From Candidatus Venteria ishoeyi (lineage in GTDB: Bacteria > Pseudomonadota > Gammaproteobacteria > Beggiatoales > Beggiatoaceae): DNA of 56,406 nt. Every line of letters starts with the position of its first letter. Position 1 is the stretch's first letter. Under the pieces are notes generated by a model. It searched no databases. It was given only the letters and a program-made list of their open reading frames with translations, and was not told the DNA's origin. A program made the translations under genes and the position numbers. This document shows, one piece after another, positions 1 through 56,063 of this stretch. The DNA lies in the NCBI RefSeq assembly GCF_030378065.1, contig NZ_JAUCGJ010000032.1, positions 1-56,406 on the forward strand, written 5' to 3'.

Positions 1-948
1 ACTATTTGGTGGAAGCTGATATAAAAGGCTTTTTCAACAATATAGACCATGACTTGCTGCTGGAAATGCTAAGCAGGCGCATAGATGACAAACCCTTCCT
101 GAATCTGATACGGAAATGGCTCAAAGCGGGCATACTTGATGAAGGGCGAATCACTAACCCGACCACAGGCACACCACAAGGCGGTATTGTTTCGCCCATA
201 TTGGCAAACATTTATCTCCATCATGTGCTTGATGGTTGGTTCCATGAAAAGGTACAAACTCACTGTAGGGGACAGGTATACCTTTGTCGTTATGCAGATG
301 ACTTTGTTTGTGCCTTTGAATATGAAAATGATGCCAGGCGATTCTACCAAACGCTCAAACTCAGACTTAACAAGTTTGGTCTGGAAGTAGCAGAGGATAA
401 GACAAACATGATGACATTCAGTCCGATATATCCAAAACTGAACACCCGTTTTGAATTTCTGGGATTTGAATTTCATTGGGAACTAAGCCAACGCTACAAG
501 CGTAAATGCTGGCGCAAGCCTCTTCTCAAGCGCAGAACCTCACGGAAAAAGCTCAGTGCATCACGCGCGAATTTCACCCAATGGTTCAAGAAAAACTGCC
601 AATTACCAAAGAAAATACTGTTTAAGAAACTCAACAGAAAGTTACGTGGATACTACAATTATTACGGTATCCGGGGAAACTACAAAAGCCTGAACAGTTT
701 TGCATACCACATTACGCAAACCTTCCAGAAATGGCTGAACCGACGCTCACAGCGCAAAAGCTACAACTGGTTGGGTTTTAAGGAAATGGTCAAGCACTTT
801 GGTATAGCCAAACCCTGTATCTGTCATGACTTCTAAGCAACAACAAAAACCGCGTGCAAAGCGAGCAGTTTTGAAAAGCCCTGTGCGGTAATTCCGCACG
901 CAGGGATTTGTGAGGGGGTAACTGGGTAACTGGTTGTTCTACCTCGAT
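1..948 (+). mobile_element. Group II intron, 3' part (5' part outside window)
   Basis: The window opens inside the reverse-transcriptase gene of a group II intron. After the stop codon at 834-836 the RNA continues with a domain V-like hairpin (about 875-912: AGC triad, stem closing on GTGCGG/CCGCAC, two-base CG bulge, CAGGG return strand) and a domain VI-like hairpin (about 912-946). Domain VI ends in CTACCTCGAT, with a candidate branch-point A eight bases from the end, and a terminal AT fits the AY rule for intron 3' ends. The 3' boundary at 948 is supported by comparison with the intron at 49217-49989, whose sequence matches this one up to the same CGAT and then diverges. Confidence 0.85.
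3..836 (+). CDS. ltrA: Group II intron reverse transcriptase/maturase (5'-truncated by window edge)
   Basis: Multifunctional intron-encoded protein that helps the intron RNA fold and splice and copies it into DNA during retrohoming. The visible 277 residues begin inside the fingers/palm region ([15 protein letters not shown]), carry the GTPQGG motif of RT block 4 and the catalytic YADD box at 291-302, and end in a maturase X domain (about residues 165-277; Arg/Lys-rich, LRGYYNYYG and a Trp-rich end). No HNH endonuclease follows domain X, so this is an endonuclease-minus type. The frame is open at the left edge, so the start is outside the window. The apparent TTG start at 6 is an artefact of the edge. 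The frame is intact in the window, so the protein may be functional. Confidence 0.93.
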
Positions 949-28863: not shown

Positions 28864-28911
28864 GAGGTAGAACAGCCAGTTGCCCGGCTACCCCCTCACA
28901 AATCCCGGTGT
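28864..28911 (-). mobile_element. Decayed group II intron 3' tail
   Basis: On the minus strand GGGATTTGTGAGGGGGTA, then GCAACTGGCTGTTCTACCTC, matches the domain VI end of the introns at 1-948 and 49217-49989 with several substitutions. Only the domain VI hairpin and part of domain V remain recognisable. The 160 bases beyond (to about 29070) contain no gene. Confidence 0.65.
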
Positions 28912-29073
28912 GTAAATACCCAATCAACAGCAATTAGTGGGCAAAATGCCGATAAACATTGTGGCAGTATTTCGCCCACCCTGCTTGCTGTATCAAGCGG
29001 AACTTACAAAGTTAGACATTAGCCAGTAGAATTTGCTAATGAGGGAAAGACGCTTACGTTGAACTCAGGTTGA

Positions 29074-40744: not shown

Positions 40745-40817
40745 AAGTATTCAAGCCCCAAAGGGGCAAAACATACTAGCCCAGGGCAACGCCCTGGGTT
40801 TGTAATGTGATGATACC

Positions 40818-46463: not shown

Positions 46464-46499
46464 ATTTACAGATGCCCATGTTTTTGAAGGGTTTAAAAT
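46464..46499 (+). repeat. Dispersed 36-bp repeat D, copy 1, with adjacent GGGTGTCT-type repeats
   Basis: TTTACAGATGCCCATG, then TTTTTGAAGGGTTTAAAATA. Copies of the same sequence are at 49116-49150 and 50127-50162, all on the plus strand. It is followed (46500-46650) by five short units of the form GTCTTCAAATTT or GGGTGTCTCCAAATTT. The rest of the 734-base gap before the next gene is AT-rich and has no gene other than the possible remnant. Confidence 0.8.
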
Positions 46500-46823
46500 A
46501 TGGGAGTCTTCAAATTTTTTTGGATGTCTTCAAATTTTTTTCCGATGGGTGTCTCCAAATTTGTCGCTACCAGGCTAGAATTTTCTGTTTGTATAATTTT
46601 GGTTGGTGTCTAGAATTTTATTCATACATGCCTTCAAATTTGTTTAAATTTGCTTTTTCTTTGATTTTTGCTAAAACAAAGTTCATGGGCGTACCTTTAC
46701 CCATTTTACCGATCTGTAGAACTTTACATAAAATATTTAATTTGCTATTATTGAATTTGAGCTTAGTAACTCATAAGCCTAAGCAAATGACTTGCGGGTC
46801 AACTTAACAATGCAGAGGCTATA

Positions 46824-49112
46824 ATGACTAAACTATCCACTCAAAACACCTATCAAGACTCATTTAATACTTTAATCAAAAAAGGATACTCTGAATCAGA
46901 CGCAATTATTAAACAAACTCATAAATATCTTGATAACAAACCCAGTAAAATTAAAAAGCAAAATATCTCTCATAAAGAACGAGATAATGCTTTTTGGCGC
47001 TCCCAATTTTGGCAGCAAGTAGACAAACAAGTCTTTGATTCAGAAGCTTTCATTTTAGCTTTGACTCGCTTTTTTCAACAAAAAAGTGTTGATTTTCAAT
47101 TCTTGCAAAAAGTTGTTCTAAGTTCCCCCAATTCCTTTAAGCAAGCCATACGGCATTCTAAGGTCTTTATACAGCATCAAGACCATCCCCGCTGGAAAAC
47201 TGTTCAAGAAATTCTTGATACTAGTCCTGATTTTTCTGAGTTTAATAAGGCATGTCATATTATCTCAGATCAGTTTCATACTCGTAAAGATCATTTGAAA
47301 AAATCTGAAGTGGTTTTATCTGAGTTTTCTTTCCTGGAATTTTTGTTCTACACGACTTTGTATGGATTTAAGCATTTAGTTGGTAATGCTCCTGCAATCA
47401 CACATCATAGTAGGCAAATCCATAACTTTCAGGCTTCCACTCAAGCCATAAATCAATTGCTATTAACTAAATTAGAGTTATGCCTGCCAGATGAATTTAA
47501 ACTGAATCAAGAATTTATTTATACAGAGATAAATAAGCATTTTATATGGGGGGAGAAAATATCTAAAAATATAGCAGATAAACTTAGTAAATTTGAAAGT
47601 TTAGTTAAGATTCAAAAAGACTTTATCGTATTTAAAAATAGCTCTTTTGATACATTTTGTTATGACGAAAATTTTGAGTTACATACCCAAAATGGTGAAT
47701 TGGTTTTGTGTGTAGCTGATATAGAGAAGTTTCGTAATTGGAAACGAGATGGAGAAAAGCTTTTGCATTATTCTGAACTTTATTGGAATAATATAGTTGT
47801 TGAAGAGTTTCAAAATTATAAATTAAAAGATAAAATTTTTGGTTCAAAGGAATACCATGAATATAATCAAAATGCTTGGTTACTTGCCAATAAATATCAA
47901 AATATTTTGTATGAACTATATGGTATAGATAAGTTAATTAATACAGAAACTGCTACTGTACGCAATTCAACCTATATCTTAGAAATGATATGTGCAGATT
48001 TTAAATCAAATTTCATTGTGCCTTATTCAGAATTTTTACAAAATACGCAGGACTGGAAACAGGCATTTCAAAAATTTATAGTAGCAAATATCTTAAAAGG
48101 AAAACCTCGCATTCCTTTAGACTTTATAGATCAGCAAGAGCGAGTCCAGCAAATTGCAAAATCAGAAAAAATATTAGAAAAGGATGCTCAAGTAATAGTG
48201 GACTTATGGAGTACAGATATAAAAGCACTATCCAAATCATTACAAAACCCTAAGAATGGACAACGAGAGCCTTTTCGAGAACTATTTGAAAAACCTTTCT
48301 TGAAAGTAGGACGTTGGCTATTTCAGTTTCCTTGGCAATTAGCTCAACAAAATAATGGAACAGCCATTATCAATAACTTACGGCGATTTCACAACAAACG
48401 CCCCTCACTAAAAGACGAAACTGACCGTATCGAAAAAAACTTAGCCCTTTTATTTCAAAAATTTGGATTTAATGTTATTCAGAGTTACCAACCTCCTCGA
48501 ACAAATGAAGGAGAGGTTGGTGATATAGATGTTATTTGTGCTAAAGATGAGCATGTATTTGTTTTTGAGTTAAAATCAACTTATGTGCGGACAACTCTAG
48601 AGACAGCTTGGAAACACAAAACTGACACCTTACGCAAAGCGGGGTTACAACTTAAACGAAAACTTCCCCATGTCATCAGTACCTTGAATACCGATGCTGA
48701 GTTAAAAGAAAAACTAGGTATAATCCAAGTTGATGAAAATAAAATTCATGCTTGGATTATTGATACTTCGTTTGAAAATGACCATGAAAAATTTTCTGGT
48801 TTTTTAAAAGTTTCACTACTAGAAGTTATAATAGCATTATGTAATCATCGTTTTTATGCTAGAGATTTAGCCTCTGCTTTAAAAATAAATGAAGGATTTC
48901 AAACTTGGGATATTAAACAGCAAAACGCTAATGTAGAGGCAATGTTGTCCCCTGAGGCATCTCAAATAATAGAGGATATTATAAAGAAAGATGATTTATA
49001 CCCAAATGGTTTTTCTGTTGGGCGATTTGCTGAAATTATAGAAAAAGAGGAAGTTTGGGAGGTAATTGGAGAGGTTGTTATTACACAACGAGAATTAGTT
49101 CGCCATTTATAA
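46824..49112 (+). CDS. Unknown 762-residue protein with C-terminal PD-(D/E)XK nuclease motif
   Basis: Not recognised as a named family. Cytoplasmic; no signal peptide or membrane helix. The first 540 residues are mostly helical (DSFNTLIKKGYSESDAIIKQTHK ... DFKSNFIVPYSEFLQ). From about 545 a nuclease-like domain is visible: KNLALLFQKFGFNVIQSY, then EVGDIDVICAKDE with D567/D569, and HVFVFELKSTYVR with E582-x-K584, the D...ExK pattern, followed by a helix with TLRKAGLQLKRKL. It could be a restriction or defence nuclease. GAGG lies seven bases before the ATG. The gene is bounded by the D repeats at 46464 and 49116, a sign of movement as a unit. AT-rich codon use sets it apart from rapA. Confidence 0.75.
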   Translation: MTKLSTQNTYQDSFNTLIKKGYSESDAIIKQTHKYLDNKPSKIKKQNISHKERDNAFWRSQFWQQVDKQVFDSEAFILALTRFFQQKSVDFQFLQKVVLSSPNSFKQAIRHSKVFIQHQDHPRWKTVQEILDTSPDFSEFNKACHIISDQFHTRKDHLKKSEVVLSEFSFLEFLFYTTLYGFKHLVGNAPAITHHSRQIHNFQASTQAINQLLLTKLELCLPDEFKLNQEFIYTEINKHFIWGEKISKNIADKLSKFESLVKIQKDFIVFKNSSFDTFCYDENFELHTQNGELVLCVADIEKFRNWKRDGEKLLHYSELYWNNIVVEEFQNYKLKDKIFGSKEYHEYNQNAWLLANKYQNILYELYGIDKLINTETATVRNSTYILEMICADFKSNFIVPYSEFLQNTQDWKQAFQKFIVANILKGKPRIPLDFIDQQERVQQIAKSEKILEKDAQVIVDLWSTDIKALSKSLQNPKNGQREPFRELFEKPFLKVGRWLFQFPWQLAQQNNGTAIINNLRRFHNKRPSLKDETDRIEKNLALLFQKFGFNVIQSYQPPRTNEGEVGDIDVICAKDEHVFVFELKSTYVRTTLETAWKHKTDTLRKAGLQLKRKLPHVISTLNTDAELKEKLGIIQVDENKIHAWIIDTSFENDHEKFSGFLKVSLLEVIIALCNHRFYARDLASALKINEGFQTWDIKQQNANVEAMLSPEASQIIEDIIKKDDLYPNGFSVGRFAEIIEKEEVWEVIGEVVITQRELVRHL

Positions 49113-49150: not shown

Positions 49151-49216
49151 AAATTTCCAGATAAAAAAATTTCCAGACACCCACTTAAATACCAGTATAA
49201 AAAACTTGGTTATTTT

Positions 49217-49989
49217 ATCGAGGTAGAACAACCAGTTACCCAGTTGCCCCCTCACAAATCCCTGCGTGCGGAATTACCGCACAGGGCTTTTCAAAACTGC
49301 TCGCTTTGCACGCTTGTTTGCTATTCCCCGCAGTGAGGTTTGCTCCATTAATCCAGTCCTTCATGTCTGGGTGTAGTTTGCCTTTGCGGGCTACGCAGTT
49401 TTGTACATCCCTTCCCCATGTACGTGGCTTTCCCACGCTCAGAGTACTATGAATGTATCTGACTCCCTTACCATCTTCAGCCGCTCTTCTTTTGGTTGAG
49501 TAGACTTACCCGCGTTAACGCTGTTTAGGTTTCGGCTTGCCTCTGTTTCCGGGTTTCCCCTTCTGTGGCTAAATATCCGCATACCTTGCAGTATTCCGGG
49601 AACGGTAAGGGTCTCACACAACCTGCCATTTGTTCTAGAAACACATGTCATGCCCAATCACACCGGCAAATCCTCCAGAATCTCACCTTTGACGATTCCT
49701 TTGTGTTGGCTTCCACTTCCCATCAGAGTGTCGCCATCTGCATTAAATAAGACTAACGATGCTGATTATAGCTTCAGGGATGTGCATATCCCCTGTGACC
49801 TGTATAGTACGCTGTGTACGCTTCACCTTTCTTGTTCACGTTTGCAGCAGACTTAACCGCTTGCAACGCTCCGCCAGAGGCGCAACACTCGCTACTGGTG
49901 GTTGGTTAGACCTTCTTGTAATCAATTACTTGATTACACCAGACAGAGACTTTCACTCTGTAAGAAATGACAAGCTTCGCTTGTCGCAC
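49217..49989 (-). mobile_element. ORF-less group II intron (773 nt)
   Basis: Read on the minus strand, the intron starts GTGCGACAAGCGAAGC at 49989, the normal GUGYG 5' end, and finishes in domain V (AAGCCCTGTGCGG with the CG bulge and CAGGG return) and domain VI with CTACCTCGAT ending at 49217. The length is 773 nt, far too short for an RT gene: only the RNA domains and a short domain IV remain. The boundaries are proved by the empty site at 52038-52119, where the same flanks (ACTTGGTTATTTT and GATGGGTGTCTCC) join directly at 52087/52088. Its 3' 95 bases match the RT-bearing intron at 1-948 with only one visible difference (GGGGGC for GGGGGT). It lies in non-coding repeat DNA. Confidence 0.92.
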
Positions 49990-50230
49990 GATGGGTGTCT
50001 CCAAATTTATCCCCACTTAAATACCAGTATAAAAAACTTGGTTATTTTAGATGGGTGTCTCCAAATTTATCTAATATTTTGGGTGTCTTCAAATTTATCT
50101 TTTCAAATTTATCTTCAAATTTTGTCATTTACAGATGCCCATGTTTTTGAAGGGGTTAAAACATGGATGTCTTCAAATTTTTTTTCAAATTTTTTGCACT
50201 CTGGGTGTCTTCAAATTTTTTCACAAAAAC
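49990..50230 (+). repeat. Field of GGGTGTCT(C/T)CAAATTT short repeats
   Basis: At least five units: GATGGGTGTCTCCAAATTTA at 49990 and 50050, GGGTGTCTTCAAATTT near 50081, ATGTCTTCAAATTT near 50166 and GGGTGTCTTCAAATTT near 50203, mixed with bare TCAAATTTATC pieces. The segment CCCACTTAAATACCAG, then ACTTGGTTATTTT, is repeated near 50011-50050. Units occur in both orientations around the 46-52 kb region. Confidence 0.8.
50127..50162 (+). repeat. Dispersed 36-bp repeat D, copy 3
   Basis: ATTTACAGATGCCCATG, then TTTTTGAAGGGGTTAAAACA, nearly identical to copies 1 and 2. Confidence 0.8.
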
Positions 50231-50329
50231 TACAATATTGAATAGTAATTAGCACAATAATATAACACCCATGAAAACATGAAAACGCTATACTGACAAT
50301 GCTTTATCAGGTATTAATTAACGAAAGGG

Positions 50330-50440
50330 CGTAGTCAGCTATAGAAAAGACAACTCTTTTAGGTCTTCGTAAGTTGTTGTCTTTTCTATAGTCTGACAGT
50401 CTCAGGAATGCTTTGCTTCCTATGACAGGGTGGATAAGCA
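50330..50440 (+). repeat. Large inverted repeat E, left copy, with 16-bp perfect stem
   Basis: About 110 bases that reappear in reverse orientation at 54712-54821 with only a few differences. It carries a perfect hairpin: CTATAGAAAAGACAAC (50339-50354) with GTTGTCTTTTCTATAG (50376-50391) around a 21-base loop. GGAATGCTTTGCTTCC lies next to it. Between 50441 and 50503 nothing else is seen. Confidence 0.88.
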
Positions 50441-50503
50441 CAGTGCCATCCGCCGTTTGCCTATAACAATCAAACATCAACACAAACTTAAAAGAGACAG
50501 GAA

Positions 50504-51337
50504 ATGCTTAAAAACATCGCGCTTTTAATTATTATTCTCATCACGCTAAACGGATGCAATCAATCGTATATCAGGAAAACAAATCTTGATTATGCTCACG
50601 ATGCACTGCAGCGAGGGGACGCAGAAGCCGCATACAGACTGGCTGAAGATTATCTTGATGATGGTAATGAGGCAGCTAAAAAAGCGAGATCAGTTATCAA
50701 TAACCCGCAAATCATCCGGACTGCGCTATCTACATTTTCAAAGTCATCATTGAAAAACAGCACGGACAAGTACGGGCAAGTGCAGGCGGCAAAACTTGAA
50801 AAAGACAGGCTGGCATTATTTGAAACAATTGCAGACTCAATACAAATAAATACAGCCAGGGAAAACTTTGAGTTCACGTTTCCAGGATACCTGTCTAATT
50901 CCGCTCAGCAAGCAATCGTATTTGCCGAAAAGGAAAAAGCAAAAAAGAAATTGGCGGCAACAGAAAAAAAACACAAAGTAGAAGCTGAGGAAAAACGTAT
51001 TGAGAATATACAAATACACTGGCTCGATGCCAGGAATAAAGCTCATGCAATATGCCGTTCAGAAGCTCAATGCAGAAAAATGTTCGCGTTAACGCAAATA
51101 TTTATCAGTCAAAAAGCAGCAATGAAAATTCAACTCGCAACAAACACCATCATTGAAACCTACAAGCCAAGCAGTTCGTATGATGTCGGCGCAAAAGCTA
51201 TAAAGACACCAATGAAAAGAAATAGCGAGGAAATCAGACTACACCTATTCTGTTCTCCAGTACAGTCAGAACTTTGCTATAAACAAGAGCGTGAAATATA
51301 CATTGCTTTTCCAAAGTTTATCTCAGATAAAACCTAA
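50504..51337 (+). CDS. Putative lipoprotein of unknown function
   Basis: 277 residues. The N-terminal lipobox is clear: hydrophobic MLKNIALLIIILITL and then NGC, so cleavage before C18 and lipidation are expected. The mature protein starts with a TPR-like helix pair (NLDYAHDALQRGDAEAAYRLAEDYL, about 28-52). A charged helix follows (EKEKAKKKLAATEKKHKVEAEEKR, about 145-170), and then a Cys-containing domain (HAICRSEAQCRKMF, HLFCSPVQSELCYKQ). AGGAA lies before the ATG. It is the first of the genes enclosed by inverted repeat E. No family is recognised. Confidence 0.7.
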   Translation: MLKNIALLIIILITLNGCNQSYIRKTNLDYAHDALQRGDAEAAYRLAEDYLDDGNEAAKKARSVINNPQIIRTALSTFSKSSLKNSTDKYGQVQAAKLEKDRLALFETIADSIQINTARENFEFTFPGYLSNSAQQAIVFAEKEKAKKKLAATEKKHKVEAEEKRIENIQIHWLDARNKAHAICRSEAQCRKMFALTQIFISQKAAMKIQLATNTIIETYKPSSSYDVGAKAIKTPMKRNSEEIRLHLFCSPVQSELCYKQEREIYIAFPKFISDKT

Positions 51338-51489
51338 CCTGCATAGCGGATAAGTAGCACCATTCATCATTTATCATACTGAAAACTCCGAAGAACTTTT
51401 TTGCCTCTAACAAAATCAATGGCTTACGCGGATGCGTACCACCTAAAGTCAATGGCTTACAGACTTTTCCAGAATTTTCAGTATTATAC

Positions 51490-51516
51490 GGCGCATGACG
51501 CTATCGCTTATGCGCC
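51490..51516. repeat. REP-like palindrome, variant 1
   Basis: GGCGCAT, 13-base loop, ATGCGCC. Same design as the element at 56185-56211 but with a different, compensated stem; both are followed by CTACC. The gap 51338-51489 also holds CAATGGCTTAC twice. Confidence 0.65.
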
Positions 51517-51533
51517 CTACCAAGCGAGTATGT

Positions 51534-52037
51534 ATGAATAAAATAGAAATTATTACAGTAAGTGAACTTTATTATGACGAGAAAATGGCAGAGCGATTAT
51601 GCGAAGATTTTAATAACTCACATAAAGATGCAATAAAAAGTAACCACTTGAGACCTGCTGAATCATCAATGTTTCTGCCACCTAAAAACAGCAATGTAGA
51701 TGGTGTTGGATTCAATCTTGTATCGTGCATGACCAAGGTTATTAAAATAAAAAAATCTGAATTCGCTCACATAGGAACCGGTATTAAGGTCAACTTCCCT
51801 CCTGGAATCTTTGGGTTAATACTCCCTTTTTTTGAGCACTATAGGGCTTTTGATTATAGCGGAATTGGCGTTGTAAAACCTGGAGATGGGGAAATTGTCG
51901 TGCATTTACATAATAATACGAAATACAAGCAAGTTGTATCACTTGGGCAGCAGGTTGCAAAACTAATCCCAATGCCAATGACATCTTTCCCTATAGATGT
52001 CATCTTCCCAAGCAAAAAAACTGATAGAGTATCCTAA
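51534..52037 (+). CDS. dUTPase-fold protein lacking the catalytic motifs
   Basis: 167 residues from the ATG at 51534 (NKIEIITVSELY); an upstream in-frame ATG at 51495 falls in the REP-like palindrome. The second half follows the trimeric dUTPase beta-fold: DGVGFNLVSCMTKVIKIKK, FAHIGTGIKVNFPPGIFGLILP, GIGVVKPGDGEIVVHLHN and VSLGQQVAKLIPMPM. In a working enzyme motif 2 (PRSG) and motif 3 (GxIDxxYxGE) carry the catalytic Asp and Tyr. Here motif 2 is PFFEHY and motif 3 has VKPGDGE, without the Asp-x-x-Tyr, so catalysis is doubtful. It may bind a nucleotide or a protein partner, or be phage-derived. Neighbours give no further clue. Confidence 0.65.
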   Translation: MNKIEIITVSELYYDEKMAERLCEDFNNSHKDAIKSNHLRPAESSMFLPPKNSNVDGVGFNLVSCMTKVIKIKKSEFAHIGTGIKVNFPPGIFGLILPFFEHYRAFDYSGIGVVKPGDGEIVVHLHNNTKYKQVVSLGQQVAKLIPMPMTSFPIDVIFPSKKTDRVS

Positions 52038-52119
52038 AAATTTCCAGACACCCACTTAAATACCAGTATAAAAAACTTGGTTATTTTGATGGGTGTCTCC
52101 AAATTTATCTCCAAATTTG
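52038..52119 (+). repeat. Empty copy of the group II intron target site
   Basis: AAATTTCCAGACACCCACTT, then ACTTGGTTATTTT joined directly to GATGGGTGTCTCCAAATTT. The same sequence at 49168-49216 and 49990-50010 is split by the intron at exactly this point (52087/52088). It shows the uninterrupted state of the site. Confidence 0.9.
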
Positions 52120-54055: not shown

Positions 54056-54655
54056 ATGTCAAAGAAAAAAAACAAAAAGCCCACAAAAAAGCCCACAAAA
54101 AAACCCATTAAAAAAACCACTAAAAAACTGGCGGCAAAAAATAAGCTGGAAAACTTAAAAAAAGTGCTTGAAAAACAAATTAATGCACTGAAAAAACAGC
54201 TGAAAGACCTTGCCAGAGAACCTGGTCCCGTTGGACCCCAAGGTGAACCCGGATTTCAAGGTGAGCAGGGGCATCAAGGTGAACAAGGGTTCCAAGGAAT
54301 ACCAGGGTCGCAGGGTGAACCAGGAGCGCAGGGTGAGGTGGGGCCTCAAGGTGAAGCAGGAGCAGCAGGTAAAGAAGGGCCTCAAGGCAAACCAGGGATT
54401 CAAGGTAAAGCAGGAGCAGCAGGCAAAGAAGGGCCTCAAGGTAAACCAGGGATTCAAGGTAAAGCAGGAGCAGCAGGCAAAGAAGGGCCTCAAGGGAAAC
54501 CAGGGATTCAAGGTGAAGCAGGGGCAGCAGGCAAAGAAGGGCCTCAAGGTAAACCAGGGATTCAAGGTGAAGCAGGGGCAGCAGGCAAAGAAGGGCCTCA
54601 AGGGAAAATGGGTCCCAGAGGGGAAAAAGGCTCTATTGACTCACCAGCTCCATAG
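54056..54655 (+). CDS. Collagen-like protein with a lysine-rich helical head
   Basis: 199 residues. The first 25 or so are strongly basic (repeats of KKPTKKP and KKTTKKL). About 26-52 form an amphipathic helix (KLENLKKVLEKQINALKKQL) suited to trimerisation. From about residue 56 to 195 the protein is an unbroken Gly-X-Y series (GPVGPQGEPGFQGEQG), with 54-bp repeats coding GEAGAAGKEGPQGKPGIQ. No signal peptide or cell-wall anchor is seen, so it may be intracellular, or exported by an unusual route. AGGAG lies 10 bases before the ATG. Bacterial collagen-like proteins occur in surface structures, spores and phage tail fibres; none of these contexts is visible. Confidence 0.9.
   Translation: MSKKKNKKPTKKPTKKPIKKTTKKLAAKNKLENLKKVLEKQINALKKQLKDLAREPGPVGPQGEPGFQGEQGHQGEQGFQGIPGSQGEPGAQGEVGPQGEAGAAGKEGPQGKPGIQGKAGAAGKEGPQGKPGIQGKAGAAGKEGPQGKPGIQGEAGAAGKEGPQGKPGIQGEAGAAGKEGPQGKMGPRGEKGSIDSPAP
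54350..54607 (+). repeat. Tandem 54-bp repeats in the collagen-like gene
   Basis: Four complete units (54350-54403, 54404-54457, 54458-54511, 54512-54565) and a partial fifth (54566-54607). Each codes 18 residues (six Gly-X-Y triplets). The copies differ only at a few bases, including a GAA/AAA (Glu/Lys) alternation at the second codon, so recent duplication is likely. Confidence 0.92.
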
Positions 54656-55452: not shown

Positions 55453-55677
55453 ATGTTAAAAGTAAAAGTTACCTCAGTTGGGAACTCTATGGGTATTTTG
55501 CTTCCAAAAGAAGCACTTAGCAAGATGAAAGTATCAAAAGGAGATGCTTTATATCTTGTAGAAAACCCTGAAGGCTTCACTTTAACACCTTATCAAGATG
55601 ATTTCAAAAGCCAAATTGAAGCAGCTGAAGATATAATGAAGCGATATAGAAACACTCTCCACGAGCTAGCTAAATGA
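55453..55677 (+). CDS. AbrB/MazE-type antitoxin
   Basis: 74 residues. The swapped-hairpin AbrB DNA-binding domain covers about 1-48: KVKVTSVGNSMGILLPKEALSKMKVSKGDALYLVE, with the GNS.GI.LPK pattern. The C-terminal tail (SQIEAAEDIMKRYRNTLHELAK) is the helix that would wrap the toxin. It binds its own promoter and neutralises the toxin of the following gene, with which it overlaps by four bases (ATGA). The pair lies between two attC-like sites, as a cassette-borne addiction module. Confidence 0.92.
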   Translation: MLKVKVTSVGNSMGILLPKEALSKMKVSKGDALYLVENPEGFTLTPYQDDFKSQIEAAEDIMKRYRNTLHELAK

Positions 55678-56063
55678 GAGAGCCTATTTGGATACTTGAT
55701 GAAATTGTTGAATCCATACACTCCATGCTATTAGCTGAACATGGTGGTGGATGTGGAATCCGAGATAAGTCTTTATTAGATTCTGCACTTGCTAGACCCA
55801 AACAAAAATTTAGTTATAACTCTAGCGTTTCAATTTTTGATCTTTCTGCTGCTTATAGTTTTGGTATTGCAAAAAATCATCCGTTTGTTGATGGAAACAA
55901 AAGAACAGCATTTACTATTGGTACTTTGTTTCTTGAAATTAATGGTTTTAAACTTAATGCAACAGAAGTTGATGCTACTATTGCCTTTGAAAATTTAGCT
56001 TCTGATGTTCTCAAAGAGAATGAGTTGTCATTATGGTTTAAGGAACATTGCATCAAAGTCTAA
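55674..56063 (+). CDS. doc: Doc/Fic-type toxin
   Basis: 129 residues, the size of Doc (death on curing). Fic motif HPFVDGNKRTAFT around residues 68-80 with the catalytic His and the NKR loop. The N-terminal helix (WILDEIVESIHSMLLAEHGGGCGIRD) and the C-terminal FENLASDVLKENELSLWFKE complete the family pattern. Doc in phage P1 phosphorylates elongation factor Tu, so growth stops unless the antitoxin is present. Its partner is the AbrB-type gene overlapping its start. The stop TAA lies inside the left core of attC-like site 2, as in many cassettes. Confidence 0.93.
   Translation: MREPIWILDEIVESIHSMLLAEHGGGCGIRDKSLLDSALARPKQKFSYNSSVSIFDLSAAYSFGIAKNHPFVDGNKRTAFTIGTLFLEINGFKLNATEVDATIAFENLASDVLKENELSLWFKEHCIKV

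Follow-up and report, generated by a model that had tools for sequence, protein, structure and literature searches.

Introduction

Group II introns that have lost their open reading frame (ORF) are known from Thermosynechococcus elongatus, where the account of the TeI3 introns describes ORF-deletion derivatives that keep remnants of the gene, that the reverse transcriptases (RTs) of sibling introns were shown to mobilise in trans, and whose exon-binding sites (EBSs) have diverged, giving families that retrohome to new sites (PMC2882425). Repeated targets are described from Sinorhizobium meliloti, with RmInt1, whose RT lacks an endonuclease domain, residing in ISRm2011-2 and RmInt2 in the inverted repeats of ISRm17; a 3'-truncated fragment, FRE652, is described as well (PMC5894124). 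For a group II intron of Pseudomonas putida KT2440, a table entry places two of nine copies in repetitive extragenic palindromic (REP) sequences (PMC1525189), and group II introns and miniature inverted-repeat transposable elements are described from Thiomargarita (PMC4853749). Here we analyse a stretch of 56,406 nucleotides (nt) from Candidatus Venteria ishoeyi (contig NZ_JAUCGJ010000032.1, positions 1 to 56,406; the window), whose minus strand carries a 773-nt group II intron that lacks an RT gene and has a base-exact empty paralogous site nearby.

Like the TeI3 introns, the 773-nt intron derives from an RT-bearing form, but 17 ORF-less copies with one deletion are described in T. elongatus, whereas a single ORF-less copy and mostly truncated ones are found here, and the targets differ (PMC2882425). 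As in S. meliloti, the targets are repeated mobile elements or their ends; the ones described there are insertion sequences and their terminal repeats, while those found here are the ends of elements with a RAYT-like (REP-associated) transposase gene and of palindromic mini-elements (PMC5894124). Because of these precedents in T. elongatus, S. meliloti and P. putida, we regard the intron as a further, well-preserved case of a known type, and as essentially ordinary. Its value is that a single contig holds an RT-bearing sibling, an ORF-deleted derivative, an exact empty paralogous site and a swappable EBS1, and that it is one more case in which group II introns target transposase-linked palindromes, repeated DNA as a landing site being one way in which such introns spread. 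Our explanation, in which we have considerable confidence, is that a group II intron, now without its ORF, was inserted in the end of a repeat by EBS-guided reverse splicing. Less ordinary, and worth asking about, is that 3'-truncated copies are in excess, whereas incomplete reverse transcription would leave the opposite; part of this excess goes with tandem duplications of the host repeat that are anchored on the left.

Intron boundaries and the uninterrupted repeat

An earlier note, made from the letters of the window alone, had claimed a group II intron without an RT gene whose boundaries are given to the base by an empty site at 52087/52088. Its coordinates and letters proved correct on re-reading the window sequence, and both claims are borne out; neither of the two outcomes that it had named as refuting, a missing group II fold or flanks that are not homologous beyond the quoted bases, was observed. 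Along the minus strand, the intron comes after the 5' exon GGAGACACCCATC, starts with GTGCGAC at 49989, finishes with CTACCTCGAT at 49217 and is succeeded by AAAATAACC. Bacterial group II introns have the consensus start GUGYG and the consensus end AY, and the termini at the exact junctions, GTGCG...AT, agree with both.

Left of the intron, 49165-49216 is identical to 52036-52087 at every position (52/52), and the right flank (49990-50015) matches 52088-52113 at 25 of 26 positions, including an unbroken run of 22 identical bases. The homology thus goes beyond the bases that had been quoted, spans a whole mini-element of about 70 nt and ends there. At 52087/52088 the two halves are joined with no base added or missing, and the intron boundaries are unambiguous because a slide by a single base destroys the identity at either end. 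This uninterrupted copy is a paralogous repeat copy rather than an allele of the intron locus; moreover, the earlier note gave it as the one empty site and missed a nearer copy at 50012-50072.

The same repeats could be read differently, the apparent empty site being a mini-element copy made by the repeat's own duplication, and intron and repeat having been shuffled by recombination. The repeats indeed form tandem, variably ended arrays around the intron, and the adjoining partial copy has one extra base. The copy at 52036-52110, however, lies 2 kb off, its halves meet with no gain or loss of a base, as is expected of an uninserted paralogue, and its sequence fits the complementarity to EBS1 described below; we consider such shuffling improbable.

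Ribozyme structure

Folding with group II covariance models gave a match to Rfam RF02005 over intron positions 62-339, part of a domain I fold, at 97.6 bits, while RF00029, the model of domains V and VI, scored 37.1 bits, below its cut-off of 40 (E 1.8e-05). The fold of the single sequence was mildly low in energy (z -2.56 with 20 shuffles), and its minimum free energy structure was without the expected form of domain V. We therefore relied for domains V and VI on covariation among 22 aligned 3' ends, taken from the genome of the window and from others, scored on a structure that was drawn by hand after the RF00029 alignment and the usual shape of domain VI and that thus leans on known group II structure. 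On these sequences the structure is 90.9% paired, compared with 83.1% for shuffles and 42-52% for slid versions, and it has 37 double-changed cells against 10.9 in shuffles. RNAalifold alone returned 22 pairs, 9 of them with double changes, with part of domain VI in another register and the region of the likely branch point paired.

The AGC triad that had been noticed in domain V is present, as are the bulge of this domain and the bulged A of domain VI, with one refinement to the triad. In group II domain V the usual triad pair at one position is G-U, and here it is G-A. Since G-A is common to 19 of the 20 sequences having letters there, we take it as a family trait and not as decay of the 773-nt copy.

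Loss of the RT gene and an RT-bearing sibling

The remnant of the RT gene starts at the same point as the ORF of an intron in Methylobacter sp. KS41, with one of its codons spelled differently. After position 676 the 773-nt intron resumes with what, in a sibling intron, follows the 3' end of the RT gene; the 3' part of this sibling opens the window (Table 1). The last 277 residues of the sibling RT, up to the stop, contain RVT_1 and GIIM, no other Pfam domain at E 0.001 and no HNH, so that this 277-residue part is, by its predicted domains, a group II intron RT without an endonuclease domain. Together, the ORF remnant and the resident RT-bearing sibling identify the 773-nt intron as an ORF-deletion derivative. 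The earlier note could show neither of them, nor the truncated copies or the transposase link of the repeat described below.

Whether the deletion came before or after the insertion is a separate matter. A full RT-bearing copy could have inserted and lost its gene in place, the ORF-less form never having moved. A single ORF-less copy was found, the ORF remnant sits at the junction, and the 3' end is identical at 96 of 97 nt to that of the RT-bearing sibling, as expected of a young deletion. Nothing decisive speaks against this course of events, although the same data fit an ORF-less copy that moved in trans, and we judge its chances to be even.

Pairing of EBS1 with the 5' exon

We examined the pairing of EBS1 with intron-binding site 1 (IBS1) in 14 copies from the genome of the window (G000), Methylobacter sp. 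KS41, G035, G026, G022 and Acetivibrio. Watson-Crick pairs occupy 65 of the 84 positions, against a permutation mean of 31, and 0 of 20,000 permutations reached as many. With one copy per group the count was 34 of 42 versus 15 (p 0.00015), and shifting EBS1 by -5 to +5 gave at most 33 pairs. For the candidate EBS2, GTCTT, set against GAGAC/AAGAC, a run-length test gave p 0.0056 on seven copies, one per group. The EBS2-IBS2 match is seen in G000, KS41 and G035 and not in G026 or Acetivibrio; the match in G022 falls outside the expected loop. A group IIC intron at a terminator was also considered and rejected, the insertion lying in the loop of a palindrome and an EBS2 candidate being present; EBS2-IBS2 pairing is a trait of IIA and IIB introns, not of IIC.

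These data also bear on the idea that the intron is a dead relic whose ribozyme no longer splices, the antisense intergenic insertion being neutral baggage. Neither flanking ORF depends on splicing, because both are on the plus strand and the intron sits between them in antisense orientation; many of the other copies are broken, and the G-A in domain V departs from the usual pair. Still, the domain I match, the helices of domains V and VI and EBS1 are intact, EBS1 pairs 6/6 with the exon, and the G-A belongs to the family. A dead ribozyme thus seems to us rather unlikely. The intron is most likely a neutral passenger.

The host repeat

For the target motif AATTNNNAGACANCCA the genome has 50 sites, versus 1 for the reversed control, a count that is descriptive since the pattern was composed from sites already seen. 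A RAYT-like ORF of about 341 residues, weakly resembling the models of REP-associated and IS200-like transposases, has 29 matches in the genome, nine of which cover all 341 residues without a stop. In four of these nine full-length copies (C48, C24, C57, C115) the exact motif precedes the gene in the same orientation. Counted from the first base of the motif, the homologous start codon follows after 84-85 nt at C48, C57 and C115 and after 195 nt at C24; the latter has an earlier in-frame ATG at 87. The motif stands inverted downstream in three of the nine (C48, C24, C60), and near the remaining full-length copies there are motif variants or there is no exact match. The genome also contains gene-less miniature palindromes with such ends. 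Among the papers listed in our searches on REP and group II introns, dispersed repeats, RAYT (by title, among the matches listed) and truncated fragments, we found no report of RAYT-element ends as intron targets.

Among the 16 intron 5' ends of the genome, 10 are preceded by RGACANCC exactly and 13 within one mismatch (by eye); the three without it are at C17:1808, C83 and C39. The other intron pieces occupy differing variants of the repeat, which have mainly the IBS-like motif in common. The earlier note had left it open whether the intron spread with the repeat or into it. Two of the three mini-elements of the window, one of them partial, are free of the intron, the repeat contexts are varied and EBS1 pairs 6/6, which argues for spread into the repeat rather than with it. 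A mobile repeat that carried the intron along was rejected, the other mini-element copies seen being empty. As a side observation, an ORF at 51495-52037 (+), weakly dUTPase-like and below cut-offs, has a stop codon that abuts the start of the empty mini-element at 52038.

Proposed course of insertion

Deletion of the RT/maturase gene from domain IV would have left a 773-nt ribozyme that keeps the EBSs, domain V and domain VI. Either this intron, or its ORF-bearing parent before the deletion, would have entered the site by reverse splicing, guided by pairing of EBS1, and probably EBS2, with the 5' exon, and reverse transcription would then have completed the insertion. The sibling RT, of which the 3' part is seen at the contig start, could supply maturase and RT in trans for the predicted splicing and retrohoming of the ribozyme. 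The target would be the end motif of palindromic mini-elements related to the RAYT-like transposase elements and, the site being such an end motif, each element offers a target.

Several observations weigh against this explanation. The RAYT-like ORF stays below curated cut-offs, with 44.4 bits against 80 for NF047646 of NCBIfam (E 1.5e-11) and 19.5 against 23 for Pfam PF01797, and a structure search with its protein matched no solved structure. Of the type of mini-element hit by the intron, only about five copies can be recognised, and three of these are in the window. Within G000 alone (four copies) the EBS1-IBS1 test gave p 0.08, or 0.33 with G-U counted; these are too few copies, and we therefore claim no covariation inside this genome, where EBS1 of the worst copy, at C105, pairs 3/6. 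Only one ORF-less copy was found, so that mobility of the ORF-less form itself is a prediction and deletion in situ fits equally well. Lastly, the contig starts inside the sibling RT gene, residues 1-152 of the KS41 RT have no match in the assembly at E <=1e-30, and no intact RT gene is visible. As four intron pieces stop exactly at contig ends, we infer from this missing N-terminal match that full RT-bearing copies probably collapsed there.

Table 1. Features of the intron, its target repeat and its relatives in the window.
Feature	Coordinates	Strand	Basis
ORF-less group II intron, 773 nt, GTGCGAC...CTACCTCGAT	49217..49989	-	Rfam matches, domain V/VI covariation, junctions against the uninterrupted repeat
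Part of domain I (Rfam RF02005 group-II-D1D4-6)	49651..49928	-	97.6 bits, gathering 49, E 2.4e-26
Domain V	49257..49289	-	RF00029 alignment and covariation
Domain VI, likely branch-point A at 49224	49220..49253	-	Covariation supports the helix; branch point placed by analogy with other group II introns
EBS1 GATGGG, intron 266-271	49719..49724	-	6/6 Watson-Crick pairs with its IBS1; the copies covary
IBS1 CCCATC, final six nt of the 5' exon	49990..49995	-	Pairs with EBS1
Candidate EBS2 GTCTT, intron 237-241	49749..49753	-	Weaker covariation with the IBS2 region
Candidate IBS2 GAGAC	49997..50001	-	Position read from sequence
RT gene remnant, first 11 codons including start, then deletion junction	49314..49348	-	Junction at intron 676/677
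Sibling RT/maturase gene, 3' two thirds, 277 residues, cut by contig start	3..836	+	RVT_1 and GIIM
Domain V-VI 3' end of the RT-bearing sibling	852..948	+	96/97 nt identical to intron 677-773
Relic of the same intron family, 5'-truncated (intron 722-770)	28864..28912	-	86%
Left half of the interrupted palindromic mini-element	49165..49216	+	52/52 identical to 52036-52087
Right half of the interrupted mini-element	49990..50015	+	25/26 identical to 52088-52113
Second, partial mini-element adjoining the intron (left arm missing)	50012..50072	+	Empty, one extra base at the insertion point
Uninterrupted mini-element (empty site)	52036..52110	+	Junction 52087/52088

Relatives in other genomes

Of 57 genomes searched, 14 gave any match to the intron. 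The closest full-length named relatives found are four copies in Methylobacter sp. KS41 (L065-L068), where the intron is 1983 nt long and encodes an RT of 428 residues. This RT is 72% identical to that of the sibling over 277 residues, the ORF start is the same and domains V-VI are 91% identical, but EBS1 is AGTTAT and the introns occupy other, AT-rich sites that do not look like one repeat family (by eye).

Two intron copies in G022 follow a 21-nt 5' exon that is repetitive, with 376 matches (one mismatch allowed) versus 0 for controls, and the copy with an alignable EBS1 pairs 6/6. The two introns in this palindromic repeat (L083 705-1597 and L093 42-1597) belong to the same family and are shortened, the RT remnant of one containing stops. 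In G017 one piece is preceded by AAGCGTAGGATGG and another by a near variant. Occurrences of AAGCGTAGGNTGG numbered 18 in G017 (versus 0 for the control), 12 in G016, 4 in G031 and, the most, 48 in G035 (versus 1). Repeat-targeting as a rule for the whole lineage was nevertheless rejected: the site in G035 is single-copy even with up to three mismatches, the one full intron seen in that genome (L077) lies outside AAGCGTAGGNTGG although the motif is commonest there, and the KS41 sites share only the IBS-like end and no longer flank (by eye).

Truncated copies and tandem arrays

A search of the genome for further copies, as the earlier note had proposed, found 19 places matching the intron. Fifteen hold intron base 1, namely one full copy, four cut by contig ends and ten that are 3'-truncated; the four without it are the RT-bearing sibling and three 5'-truncated relics. 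Adding one 14-nt piece brings the 3'-truncated pieces away from contig ends to 11, of which three lie within 1 kb of each other on C17. The 3'-truncated copies lie in L002, L003, L004, L009, L011, L014, L016, L017 and L028. Eleven 3'-truncated against three 5'-truncated pieces is the opposite of what incomplete reverse transcription would leave. We rejected the idea that transposons inserting into the intron had caused the 3' truncations, as the missing part was not found beyond the break in flanks of up to 1.5 kb (less near contig ends). In 7 of the 11 pieces RGACANCC lies within -15 to +60 of the break, compared with 3.2% of random points in the fetched loci of the same genome, and four are without it.

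In eight hand-picked stretches we analysed the tandem arrays of the repeat; they include 50012-50240 (-) and 46464-46566 of the window, as well as L064, L061, L009 and L010. The units share their starting point but differ in where they end, which in clean cases is 9 to 178 nt further on. Three or more nt to the left of the anchor are also shared by 22 of 30 successive unit pairs, much of this being A-rich. Two of the units extend 14 and 162 nt into the intron. Because units run into the intron in this way, we take at least some of the 3'-truncated introns to have arisen as side products when the host repeat was duplicated from a fixed left edge. That edge could be accounted for by the transposase nicking the end of the repeat, which is speculation on our part. 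Arrays and truncations may alternatively be misassemblies in short-read contigs, but a similar tandem pair is also found in G017.

A broader proposal is that the lineage re-aims its EBSs from genome to genome at abundant host palindromes, which offer many neutral sites on both strands, and that the 3'-truncated copies record a repeat-end-anchored copying, with fixed left and variable right edge, into tandem arrays. We put it forward tentatively and expect it to fail sooner than to hold.

Other features of the window

The 762-residue ORF adjoining the intron (46824-49112, +) matched nothing in Pfam at E 0.001 or in NCBIfam at E 1. A match to the Acido-Lenti-1 RNA family lies at 40754-40798 (-), with 38 bits against a cut-off of 37. 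Beyond the empty mini-element, an ORF with collagen-like Gly-X-Y repeats (by eye) is located at 54056-54655 (+), and two adjacent ORFs at 55453-56063 (+) may encode an AbrB-type antitoxin and a Doc/Fic toxin, which they resemble by eye.

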